DNA from: Haloterrigena salifodinae
GTDB lineage: Archaea; Halobacteriota; Halobacteria; Halobacteriales; Natrialbaceae
Reading direction: 5' to 3'
NCBI RefSeq assembly: GCF_003977755.1
Contig: NZ_RQWN01000002.1
Location: 992,001-1,056,000 of the forward strand
Length of the DNA stretch: 64,000 nt
Shown here: positions 56,559 through 61,367 of the stretch, piece by piece
How the letters are laid out: each line of letters starts with the position of its first letter
Position numbering within the stretch: the first letter of the stretch is position 1
Position numbers and translations under genes: made by a program
Notes under the pieces: model-generated
The model's database searches: none
Told to the model about the DNA's origin: nothing
What the model saw: only the letters and a program-made list of their open reading frames with translations

Positions 56559-59297
56559 ATGACTGAGGCGGGCCAATCCGGACTCGCGGACTTCGGCGGC
56601 GAGTCCGACGACGCGGACGAGCGGCCGGAGGAAGAGGCGGTTGCCGTCGCCGGCAACGGCGGCTCGAGCGCCGCCGAGGTAATCGACGTAATCGAGGAGA
56701 CCCTGCCCGAACCGCAGGGCGAACTCGAGCTCGCGGTGATGCAGGTCGATTACACCATTGCGGGCTACGGCGACGAGGAGCGGCCGATCATGCACGTCTT
56801 CGGACGCACGCCCGACGGCGAGCTGGAGCACGTACAGATCGTCGGCTTCCAGCCGTACTTTTACGCGCCGACGGACAGCCTCGAGCAACCGCCCGAGGAG
56901 CAGTACGACCGGCTGACGGGCAGTCGAGAGGTCGGCGAGGACGGCGAGCCCTACGAGAGTATCCGAGGGGAGAAACTCACCAAGATCTTCGGCCAGACGC
57001 CACGGGACGTCGGGCAGATCCGTGACGACTTCGAACACTACGAGGCCGACATCCTCTTTCCCAACCGGTTCCTGATCGACAAGGACATCCGTAGCGGGAT
57101 GCGGGTCCCCGAACGCCGCGCCGACGACGACTCGCTCGTGGTTCCCCACGACGAGGTCGAGGCCGTCGACGTCGACGCCGAGCCGCGCGTCAACACGTTC
57201 GACATCGAGGTCGACGACCGCTCGGGCTTCCCCGAGGACGGCGAGGAGCCGATCGTCTGTCTCACCAGCCACGACTCCTACCGCGACGAGTACATCATGT
57301 GGCTCTACGAGGCCCCGATCGGCGACGGCCCGATCCCCGAGGAAATCGAGAACTACGATCCGATCGAGGGCGAGATCGACCACGAGGTCCGCGCCTTCGA
57401 GGACGAGGAAGCGATGCTCGAGACCTTCATTGACTACATCGAGGAGACCGATCCCGACGCCCTCACGGGCTGGAACTTTGAGGACTTCGACGCGCCGTAC
57501 TTCCTCGACCGCCTCGAAGAGGTCGACGGCCCCCACCACGACTACGACCTCTCGATCGATCGCCTCTCGCGGGTCGACGAGGTCTGGCGCAGCAACTGGG
57601 GCGGCCCCGACATCAAGGGCCGGGTCGTCTTCGACCTGCTCTACGGCTACCAGCGGATGGTCTTCTCCGAGCTGGATTCGTACCGCCTCGACGCGGTCGG
57701 CGAGGCCGAACTCGGCGTGGGGAAGGAACGGTACGCCGGCGACATCGGCGACCTCTGGGAGGACGACCCCACGAAACTGCTCGAGTACAACCTCCGGGAC
57801 GTCGAACTCTGTGTCGAACTCGACCGCCAGCAGGAGATCATCCCCTTCTGGGACGAGGTACGTTCCTTTGTCGGCTGTAAGTTAGAGGACGCACCGACGC
57901 CCGGCGACGCGGTCGACATGTACGTCCTCCACGAGGCCTACGGCCGCTTCGCCCTCCCCTCGAAGGGCCAGCAGGAGGCCGGCGAGGAGTACGAGGGCGG
58001 CGCCGTCTTCGAGCCGATCACAGGCGTCAAGGAGAACGTCACCGTGCTCGACCTGAAGTCGCTGTACCCGATGTGCATGACGACGATCAACGCCTCGCCG
58101 GAGACGAAGGTCGACCCCGAGGAGTACGACGGCGAGACCTACGTCGCGCCGATCGGCGACGACGAGATTCACTTCCGGAAGGAACCCGACGGCGTCATGC
58201 GCGAGATGATCACGGAACTGCTCGCCGAGCGCGAGGAGAAGAAGTCGCTGCGAAACGAGTACGAGCCGGGGAGCCTCGAGTACGAGCAGTACGACCGCCA
58301 GCAGGGTGCGGTGAAGGTCATCATGAACTCGCTGTACGGCGTCTCCGGTTGGGAGCAGTTCCGGCTCTACGACAAGGAGGCGGCGTCTGCGATCACCGCG
58401 ACCGGTCGCGAGGTGATCGAGTTCACGGAGACCGCGGCGAACGAACTCGACTTCCAGGTCACCTACGGCGACACCGACAGCGTCATGCTCGAGTTGGGCC
58501 CCGACGTCTCGACGGAGGAGGCCATCGAGCAATCGTTCGAGATCGAGGAGCACATCAACGGACGCTACGACGACTTCGCGCGCGAAGATTTGAACGCGGA
58601 GGCCCACCGCTTCCAGATCGAGTTCGAGAAGCTCTACCGGCGGTTCTTCCAGGCGGGCAAGAAGAAACGCTACGCCGGCCACATCGTCTGGAAGGAGGGC
58701 AAGGACGTCAACGACATCGACATCGTCGGCTTCGAGTACCAGCGCTCGGACATCGCCCCGATTACCAAGGAAGTCCAACACCGGGTCATCGAGATGATCG
58801 TCCGCGAGGGCGACGTCGAAGGGGCGAAGGAGTACGTCAACGGGATCATCGAGGACGTCCGCACGGGCGACATCTCTCTCGAGGAGATCGCCATCCCGGG
58901 CGGGATCGGCAAGCGCCTCGACAACTACGACACCGACACCGCGCAGGTCCGCGGGGCGAAGTACGCGAACCTGCTGTTGGGTACTAACTTCCAGCGCGGG
59001 AGCAAGCCCAAGCGCCTCTACCTCGACCGCGTCGATCCCGCCTTCTTCCGCCGGATGGAGAGCGACGAGGGATTCGACCCCCAGCGCGATCCCCTCTACG
59101 GCGCCTTCAAGCGCGACCCCGACGTGATCTGCTTCGAGTACGAGGATCAGATCCCGCCGGAGTTCGAAGTCGGCTACGACAAGATGCTCGAGAAGACCCT
59201 GAAGGGGCCGATCTCACGGATCCTCGAGGCGCTGGACGTCTCGTGGAACGAAGTGAAAAGCGGTCAGGAGCAGCAAGGTCTCGATCAATACTGGTAG
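56559..59297 (+). CDS. polB: Family B DNA polymerase, without intein
   Basis: Protein of 912 residues. The 3'-5' exonuclease has FDIEVDD and TGWNFEDFDAPYF; the polymerase motifs are DLKSLYPMC (A), KVIMNSLYGVSG (B) and YGDTDSVM (C). It ends QQGLDQYW, a PIP box for binding the sliding clamp. This is the main replicative or repair polymerase of family B. Many haloarchaeal polB genes carry inteins at motifs A, B or C; here all three sites are empty. A lower-GC HNH nuclease gene follows 238 bases later. Confidence 0.94.
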   Translation: MTEAGQSGLADFGGESDDADERPEEEAVAVAGNGGSSAAEVIDVIEETLPEPQGELELAVMQVDYTIAGYGDEERPIMHVFGRTPDGELEHVQIVGFQPYFYAPTDSLEQPPEEQYDRLTGSREVGEDGEPYESIRGEKLTKIFGQTPRDVGQIRDDFEHYEADILFPNRFLIDKDIRSGMRVPERRADDDSLVVPHDEVEAVDVDAEPRVNTFDIEVDDRSGFPEDGEEPIVCLTSHDSYRDEYIMWLYEAPIGDGPIPEEIENYDPIEGEIDHEVRAFEDEEAMLETFIDYIEETDPDALTGWNFEDFDAPYFLDRLEEVDGPHHDYDLSIDRLSRVDEVWRSNWGGPDIKGRVVFDLLYGYQRMVFSELDSYRLDAVGEAELGVGKERYAGDIGDLWEDDPTKLLEYNLRDVELCVELDRQQEIIPFWDEVRSFVGCKLEDAPTPGDAVDMYVLHEAYGRFALPSKGQQEAGEEYEGGAVFEPITGVKENVTVLDLKSLYPMCMTTINASPETKVDPEEYDGETYVAPIGDDEIHFRKEPDGVMREMITELLAEREEKKSLRNEYEPGSLEYEQYDRQQGAVKVIMNSLYGVSGWEQFRLYDKEAASAITATGREVIEFTETAANELDFQVTYGDTDSVMLELGPDVSTEEAIEQSFEIEEHINGRYDDFAREDLNAEAHRFQIEFEKLYRRFFQAGKKKRYAGHIVWKEGKDVNDIDIVGFEYQRSDIAPITKEVQHRVIEMIVREGDVEGAKEYVNGIIEDVRTGDISLEEIAIPGGIGKRLDNYDTDTAQVRGAKYANLLLGTNFQRGSKPKRLYLDRVDPAFFRRMESDEGFDPQRDPLYGAFKRDPDVICFEYEDQIPPEFEVGYDKMLEKTLKGPISRILEALDVSWNEVKSGQEQQGLDQYW

Positions 59298-59327: not shown

Positions 59328-59407
59328 CTATAGTACAATTGAAACGATTTACACACCGATCGCACAGCCGTCGTGCGGTCGGGTGTGCATTGACTTTCAT
59401 ACTATAG
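59328..59407. repeat. Long imperfect hairpin between polB and the HNH gene
   Basis: The outer arms are ctatagta (59328-59335) and tactatag (59400-59407). The inner stem is cacaccgatcgcac paired with gtgcggtcgggtgtg (one bulge, one G-T pair) around the loop agccgtc. At 80 bases with outer and inner arms it could be a terminator, a MITE-like relic or an RNA structure. Confidence 0.55.
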
Positions 59408-59534
59408 TAGGCGTGTTTTGCTGTTCACAGTTTGCACTTTGTAAGGGGGATAGATAGACATCGATCCAACTATTAATCTGTTTTGACAAGTGTCCATATG
59501 AGAAAATTAGCCGGATAAGTGAGTGGAACTAAGA

Positions 59535-60332
59535 ATGCCTGAAAAAGTCACTATTCCGACCGAAACGCTCCGTCACTGGTACCACAACGAGGAAATGACG
59601 CTCTCGGAGATCGCTGACGAGGTCGGTTGTTCGATGACGACCGTTTATAATCGAATGGAAGAACACGGTATCGACCGTCGGACGGCGAACCAGGATGTCG
59701 AAACACATGAAGTCCACTGTGAATACTGTGGGACTCAGAAGGAGATACCACCCTGTCAGTACGAACAGTCGGAACGCTTCTTCTGCGATAACCAATGCCA
59801 GGGTGAATTCTTGAAAGAGACCGGACGCGTTAGTGGAGAAAATAGTCCATGGTGGAAGGGGAAGGAGTCAGTAGAGTGCTCGAATTGTGGTACGACGAAG
59901 GCCGTGTATCCGAGTCGTCTGGAAACGAAGTCAAAACATTTCTGCGATATCAGTTGTTACGCAGAGTGGCAATCTCAGAACCGCCGCGGCGAGAACCATC
60001 ATCAGTGGGACCCCGACTCCCAAACGCAGTTTTACACTGGTAATTGGAAGAATGTTCGTCGGCGCGTGCGAGAACGAGACAACAATACGTGCCAATTGTG
60101 CGGAGTTGATTCGGATGTGATCGGCCGAAACCCAGATGTTCATCATATCTGCCCTATTCGTACCTTCGATGATCCGTCCAATGCCCATACAATGGATAAT
60201 TTGATACAACTCTGTCGTCTTTGCCATACATTCATGGAGCGTCTGCCGGAAAGTCAGCAGAGAGCGCTCTTAGAGGGAGATGTTCCGATACTTGGGGGAG
60301 ATATCGGAAGACGAATACGCGGAGTGAATTGA
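59535..60332 (+). CDS. HNH endonuclease with helix-turn-helix and zinc ribbons, probable mobile gene
   Basis: Protein of 265 residues, visibly lower in GC than its neighbours. A helix-turn-helix lies at 18-50 (MTLSEIADEVGCSMTTVYNR); zinc ribbons at C62/C65/C84/C88 and C115/C118/C137/C141; GENxxxW motifs of homing-nuclease type at 101-107 and 152-158; and an HNH domain at 180-235 with CQLC, HH (203-204), Asn222 and CRLC. It should cut or nick DNA. It sits alone between polB and sufC. The ATG at 59535 was chosen; the ATG at 59523 is possible. Confidence 0.83.
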   Translation: MPEKVTIPTETLRHWYHNEEMTLSEIADEVGCSMTTVYNRMEEHGIDRRTANQDVETHEVHCEYCGTQKEIPPCQYEQSERFFCDNQCQGEFLKETGRVSGENSPWWKGKESVECSNCGTTKAVYPSRLETKSKHFCDISCYAEWQSQNRRGENHHQWDPDSQTQFYTGNWKNVRRRVRERDNNTCQLCGVDSDVIGRNPDVHHICPIRTFDDPSNAHTMDNLIQLCRLCHTFMERLPESQQRALLEGDVPILGGDIGRRIRGVN

Positions 60333-60458
60333 TGAAGTTTTCCGTTACGCCATCACAGTTCCCGATAGAGTAACTTATTTTTGCGTTGTGGAACAGTATC
60401 CAAATGGATACGAAACCGTTATCAGTCATACGCCCCACTCTTCGGACGAGCGAATACT

Positions 60459-61367
60459 ATGGCACGTCTCGAACTATCCAACCTGCACGCGGAAGTGGCG
60501 GAGGGCGACGAGAAAATTCTCGAGGGCGTCGATCTCGAAGTCGAGTCCGGCGAGATTCACGCCCTGATGGGGCCCAACGGCTCCGGGAAGTCGACGACCG
60601 CGAAGGTCATTGCCGGTCACCCCGCCTACGAGGTCACTGAGGGCGAGGTTCTGCTCCACCTCGAGGACGAGGAGTTCGGTGAGGACATCGAGATCGACGA
60701 GGACCAGCGCACCTGGAACCTGCTGGACTTAGAGCCCAACGAGCGCGCCGCGCTCGGCATCTTCCTCGGCTTCCAGTATCCGGCCGAGATCGAGGGCGTC
60801 ACGATGACGAACTTCCTCCGCACGGCGCTGAACGCCAAGATCGAGGAGCGCGAGGAGCTCTTCGAGGAAGAGGAAGGCGAAGACGTCGAAGAAGAGGATG
60901 AAGGCTTCGAGTCCTCGCCGATGGAAGGCCCCGCGGACGAGGGCGAGGTCGGCGTCGCCGAGTTCCAGCAGATCCTCCAGGAGAAGATGGAGCAACTGGA
61001 CATGGATGAGAAGTTCGCCCAGCGCTACCTCAACGCCGGCTTCTCCGGCGGGGAGAAAAAGCAGAACGAAGTGCTGCAGGCCGCCATCCTCGAGCCCTCG
61101 GTCGCCGTCCTCGACGAGATTGACTCCGGGCTCGACATCGACCGACTACAGGACGTCTCGGAGGGCATCAACGCCCTGCGCGACGAGCAGGGTACTGGTA
61201 TCCTCCAGATCACCCACTACCAGCGCATCCTCGACTACGTCGAGCCCGATCACGTCCACGTGATGCTCGACGGCCAGATCGCCAAGAGCGGCGGTCCCGA
61301 GCTCGCCGAGAAGCTCGAGGACAAGGGGTACGACTGGGTCCGCGAAGACGTCTACGGCACCGCGTAA
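60459..61367 (+). CDS. sufC: Fe-S cluster assembly ATPase SufC
   Basis: Protein of 302 residues. Walker A is GPNGSGKS (38-45), the signature FSGGEKKQNEV (about 194-204), then VAVLDEIDSGLDID (Walker B). A very acidic insertion (about 131-165, with EEEEGEDVEEEDEGFES) separates Q-loop and signature and is absent from bacterial SufC; it is probably a halophilic addition. SufC drives the SufBCD scaffold that builds Fe-S clusters. sufB begins 61 bases later. A start 26 codons earlier exists but is not family-like. Confidence 0.93.
   Translation: MARLELSNLHAEVAEGDEKILEGVDLEVESGEIHALMGPNGSGKSTTAKVIAGHPAYEVTEGEVLLHLEDEEFGEDIEIDEDQRTWNLLDLEPNERAALGIFLGFQYPAEIEGVTMTNFLRTALNAKIEEREELFEEEEGEDVEEEDEGFESSPMEGPADEGEVGVAEFQQILQEKMEQLDMDEKFAQRYLNAGFSGGEKKQNEVLQAAILEPSVAVLDEIDSGLDIDRLQDVSEGINALRDEQGTGILQITHYQRILDYVEPDHVHVMLDGQIAKSGGPELAEKLEDKGYDWVREDVYGTA

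Follow-up and report, generated by a model that had tools for sequence, protein, structure and literature searches.

In the window, that is, the whole 64,000-nucleotide stretch of DNA analysed here, the gap between polB and sufC is occupied by a gene for a putative free-standing HNH homing-type endonuclease, which is found at this place in few lineages of Natrialbaceae. This reading is favoured, with a probability of about 60%. The gene is accompanied by an apparent exchange of the 3' tip of polB, and it is this polymerase tip swap linked to an HNH gene that is new here. The features of the locus, in coordinates of the window, are as follows.

56559..59297, + strand: polB, DNA polymerase B of 912 aa, intein-free, the left neighbour (tblastn collinearity with relatives).
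59271..59297, + strand: putative exchanged end of polB, a PIP-box-like stretch of the codons for QQGLDQYW plus the stop, common to HNH carriers of three genera (88-genome census, segment identities).
59328..59407, no strand assigned: 80-bp palindrome of a MITE-like dispersed family (80–86 bp), probable core 59331–59404.
59535..60332, + strand: gene of the free-standing HNH endonuclease, 265 aa, low GC3 (ORF, Pfam HNH, PHROG 8446, dN/dS).
59580..59675, + strand: helix-turn-helix-like segment of the HNH protein, residues about 16–47 (several sub-threshold Pfam matches).
60090..60230, + strand: HNH nuclease domain, residues 186–232 (Pfam PF01844 above cutoff; alignment; VHHI, DNLIQLC and CH motifs intact).
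60333..60370, + strand: right junction, where carrier-specific sequence stops and the conserved sufC promoter region starts (comparison of filled and empty sites).
60459..61367, + strand: sufC, the right neighbour, intact, with conserved upstream sequence preserved.

The HNH gene is a gene of its own between the complete reading frames of polB and sufC, outside any intron or intein. An alternative GTG start at 59523 would give a protein of 269 aa. A composition count showed a GC content of 0.503 and a GC3 of 0.53, versus a GC content of 0.61–0.66 and a GC3 of 0.86–0.91 in rad50, polB, sufC and sufB of the same window, and the difference from both neighbours noted in the initial annotation is thus real. 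A GC content as low as that of the HNH gene was found in just 1% of 798-nt segments.

Among the protein features claimed previously, the HNH domain (the Pfam match at residues 186–232 exceeds its cutoff), two GENxxxW motifs and two four-cysteine clusters, the latter two features read directly in the sequence, are present, while the helix-turn-helix is represented just by sub-threshold matches, all Pfam models at residues ~16–47 scoring below their cutoffs. The residues of the nuclease motif are retained in every aligned member of the HNH alignment. Residues 9–242 match the profile of PHROG 8446 (phage HNH endonuclease) with an E-value of 7.4e-37, and the sequence of the C-terminal part matches that of the HNH endonuclease 5h0m, for which a structure is solved. 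The dN/dS ratio of 0.05–0.08 indicates that selection has kept the protein; the gene, judging from its sequence, is intact and under purifying selection. A structure prediction for the HNH protein, made from two sequences, had a mean pLDDT of 37 and was not used.

Comparison of the polB–sufC gaps across relatives, a check suggested in the initial annotation, revealed insertion-free sites and located the ends of the insertion. Among 125 genomes of Natrialbaceae, an intact HNH gene is present in three, namely, the genome of the window (G000), its sister species G003 (93%) and Natronorubrum texcoconense G009 (81%), and a decayed copy is present in one, Natronolimnohabitans innermongolicus (G025). 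All four copies sit in the polB–sufC gap and nowhere else in these 125 genomes, and an order-wide search of 392 genomes found no carrier beyond the same three intact copies. In the genus of the window, the gene is absent from four of six species; the HNH-free gap is about 180–240 bp in most congeners, with 195–196 bp in G002, G004 and G005. The picture of an old resident gene, i.e., the same gene in all relatives, with normal GC content and no boundary, was not observed.

Two loci of this comparison have other peculiarities. In the HNH-free congener G001, the gap is 826 bp long with no HNH match, and the polB tip, QTGLGNFM, is unlike that of its other HNH-free congeners. In G025, polB and the HNH remnant are ~5.5 kb apart, and the extra DNA between them contains transposase-like sequence.

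In the tree of rad50, sufB and sufC, G000 is grouped with G003, and G009 and G025 are placed apart, which gives at least three carrier lineages. Silent divergence of the HNH gene between genera (dS 1.8) is above that of the flanking genes (0.27–0.53), which argues against recent transfer between the sampled lineages; by this measure, the gene is not younger than its flanks. A gene younger than its flanks is typical of recent homing and is not strictly required for a free-standing homing endonuclease. Independent gains from a diverse pool and long-kept alleles are both possible sources of the high dS, to which a different silent rate in the low-GC gene may add.

The 3' end of polB was read in 88 genomes. 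The tip EQQGLDQYW is present in all four HNH carriers and in none of 14 sampled HNH-free congeners; in most of these, the tip is QKGLDSFM or QTGLGNFM. Across genera, carriers share 94% identity in the last 24 nt of polB, versus 48–54% for a carrier compared with congeners of its own, and the carrier set ranks first of 300 genus-matched sets of four genomes in tip contrast. Upward of ~45 nt before the stop, segment identities revealed no consistent carrier-specific similarity of polB. On the right side, similarity between filled and empty sites resumes immediately ahead of the conserved sufC promoter sequence. Taken together, the pattern of tip identity and the convergence on the right side indicate that the exchanged DNA starts within polB, about 8 codons ahead of the stop codon, and ends shortly ahead of the sufC promoter; both neighbours stay intact. 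This places the left boundary of the HNH insertion within the polB coding sequence.

W-type polB tips, some of them sharing the last five codons, also occur without the HNH gene in genera g3 and g11 and in some genomes of g9. The proposal that a W-type tip is unique to carriers was rejected, since related tips were found without the gene; within this sample, only carriers have the complete QQGLDQYW, and the shorter W-type likeness is not confined to them. HNH-free W-type tips may be where the carrier tip came from, or they may mark HNH copies that have since been lost, and they call for caution in reading the polB tip as a flank exchanged alongside the HNH gene. The association of the HNH gene with the polB tip appears strong, with three independent lineages only, i.e., few events, behind it. 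Both types of tip are taken here to be PIP boxes (PCNA-binding motifs), so contact with PCNA was probably kept, and the polymerase with the new tip probably retains its C-terminal function.

A second carrier-shared patch of polB, at about −276 to −213 nt, was rejected as a candidate: it represents two polB haplotypes, present in HNH-free genomes too. In the part of polB that lies ~96 to 66 codons ahead of its stop (window 59010–59099), FFRRMESEEGFDPQ-type and FFERLEAEEGFDAR-type haplotypes occur side by side in each of the genera g1 and g5, independently of the HNH gene, which suggests recombination within polB.

The intact HNH domain, the separate gene and the patchy presence with empty alleles, all found at this locus, are features by which homing endonucleases are recognised. 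Intronless homing predicts the features seen at this locus, namely, a nuclease gene that is intact, patchily distributed and confined to one site beside a conserved gene, with a flank replaced, and the life style of the relatives (haloviruses and the aminotransferase-linked group) fits it as well. In intronless homing of phages, repair after the cut copies the nuclease gene, and donor sequence replaces the flank of the recipient; recipients are assumed to become resistant in this way (PMC2988022; PMC12724721). At the locus analysed, the nuclease would cut or nick an HNH-free chromosome at or near the 3' end of polB or in the gap, and the break would be repaired from an HNH-bearing chromosome, with polB on one side and the suf promoter and operon on the other providing the homology. 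Such repair would copy in the HNH gene along with the donor polB tip QQGLDQYW and would remove the tip and the old gap of the recipient, biasing inheritance toward the HNH allele. A more specific form of this mechanism can be put forward only tentatively, namely, that a homing cassette targets the PIP-box codons of polB and swaps in a differently coded, functional PIP box spared by its nuclease, which would leave the host chromosome immune and the polymerase working. The earlier suggestion of a homing endonuclease was borne out as regards a free-standing, intact nuclease and an insertion lacking in most relatives, and homing itself stays a probable explanation. Counting against it are the lack of recent transfer, the W-type tips without HNH and the lack of a tip swap in the aminotransferase-linked relatives.

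An old allele passed on by descent is an unlikely alternative on account of the losses that it requires. In that case, an ancestor would have had both the HNH gene and the polB tip, most descendants would have lost both by recombination with empty alleles, and there would be no homing today. The between-genus divergence of the HNH gene, not lower than that of the flanking genes, the common inheritance in the sister pair G000/G003 and the decay visible in G025 agree with descent, but many independent losses would be needed, each restoring a congener-like polB tip, as is seen in 14 of 14 sampled HNH-free congeners. It is quite improbable that the gene derives from a halovirus, was brought by ordinary homologous recombination and is kept for another function, e.g., defence against viruses or mating partners. 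A defence role explains neither why the gene keeps to one site nor why a particular polB tip goes along with it, and the only neighbours of the HNH gene are polB and suf genes; what speaks for such a role are the relatives in haloviruses and plasmids, purifying selection and a weak similarity to ZorE, the HNH nuclease of Zorya systems. Assignment of the protein to ZorE (Zorya type II) was rejected, its score being 26.4 bits versus the curated cutoff of 600. In the search for a viral or plasmid donor, no close copy was found, and the best full-length match is 35% identical.

The candidate homing endonuclease is a new representative of the haloviral and haloarchaeal group of free-standing HNH proteins. 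The halovirus proteins of PHROG 8446, namely, HCTV-1 gp70, HVTV-1 gp109 and gp111, and HCTV-5 gp108 and gp111, resemble it in the cysteine clusters and HNH, in the free-standing position between conserved genes and in the profile family, and the N-terminal segment of the window protein is found in some of them. They differ in being viral, located away from chromosomal polB (around terminase and portal genes, or among que genes), and at most about 35% identical to the window protein. Similar to the window HNH gene, T4 SegF, SegG and MobE are encoded by intergenic, patchily distributed nuclease genes beside a conserved gene, and the donor flank replaces the recipient flank (PMC2988022), as it probably does at the window locus. 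They belong to a phage and are mostly GIY-YIG nucleases, and their cutting and biased inheritance were demonstrated in T4; for the window gene, both are predicted.

Haloarchaeal aminotransferase-linked HNH proteins, which contain a C2H2 zinc finger, zinc ribbons and HNH, are ~45–50% identical to the window protein in its C-terminal half. They share with it a related HNH, cysteine clusters and a position behind a conserved gene, at ~100 bp; they differ in that the C2H2 finger replaces the helix-turn-helix, in being far commoner and in the unchanged tip of the host gene. Extension of the tip swap to these relatives was rejected, no swap having been seen. A second free-standing HNH gene of this related group, decayed, lies behind an aminotransferase gene outside the window in the same genome (contig C2:661554–662774); the group is widespread at that site in Natrialbaceae, and in other genomes it is decayed or absent.

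The polB inteins with LAGLIDADG nucleases, as in polB of Haloferax volcanii, are likewise homing elements at haloarchaeal polB, but they lie in coding sequence, are spliced out, belong to another nuclease family and occupy different polB sites (PMC3024317, PMC4071816). The position of the HNH gene directly behind a polB lacking an intein, as described initially, was upheld, polB of the window being collinear in tblastn with intein-free relatives over its 912 aa. The suggested tie to polB inteins was not: a polB intein is present at one HNH locus (G025, with the decayed copy) and absent from the others.

The long inverted repeat upstream of the HNH gene is also real, its DNA fold having an energy of −18 kcal/mol versus −7.8 ± 2.1 for shuffled sequences (z −4.8). 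It is absent from the same place in G003, G009 and G025, where the HNH gene or its remnant is present, so among the four carriers only the window copy has a hairpin. Relatives of 80–86 bp are dispersed in 30 of 61 genomes; in one genome, the end motif was found 36 times in forward and 37 times in reverse orientation, with no occurrence of a control pattern, and about three recognisable copies are present in the genome of the window. The core is flanked by TA at 59329–59330 and 59405–59406. The empty site of G003 is TCTTTAGTAGG, versus TCTCTA/TAG...CTA/TAGTAGG in the window, with one substitution adjoining; the comparison is consistent with insertion of the hairpin at a TA and duplication of that TA. 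In G025 (C84:74446–74620), the palindromic repeat forms a tandem pair with a spacer of 3 bases.

A short palindrome with inverted ends and many dispersed copies corresponds to a MITE, and the hairpin is best described from these comparisons as a MITE-like repeat insertion, independent of the HNH gene. TA duplication and a preference for CTAG are traits of IS630/mariner-like elements, and the hairpin may be of such origin. No pair of opposite ends ~1 kb apart, as for an autonomous transposon, was detected in the two genomes searched, nor was a transposase moving the repeat; a search of RNA families gave no Rfam match at the hairpin. That the HNH gene and the hairpin form one mobile element, as the initial annotation had allowed, has a negligible probability: the two adjoin in the window, but the repeat is a dispersed family with relatives at many other sites, the HNH locus lacks it in three carriers, and the locus of G003 already contradicts a single element.

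Free-standing homing endonucleases are known chiefly from phages, and a search of the open-access literature found no description of one beside an archaeal chromosomal housekeeping gene. The polB–sufC locus is polymorphic in nature, closely related species having either a filled or an empty allele, and the nuclease gene comes with a visible exchange of the polymerase tip that probably binds PCNA. It thereby becomes testable whether an HNH gene drives itself through populations of haloarchaea and takes part of a conserved gene along.

Just upstream of sufC, an inverted repeat, GTATCC-NNNN-GGATAC (window 60396–60411), is conserved in most of the Natrialbaceae genomes read there, and it is possibly a regulator site for the suf operon.
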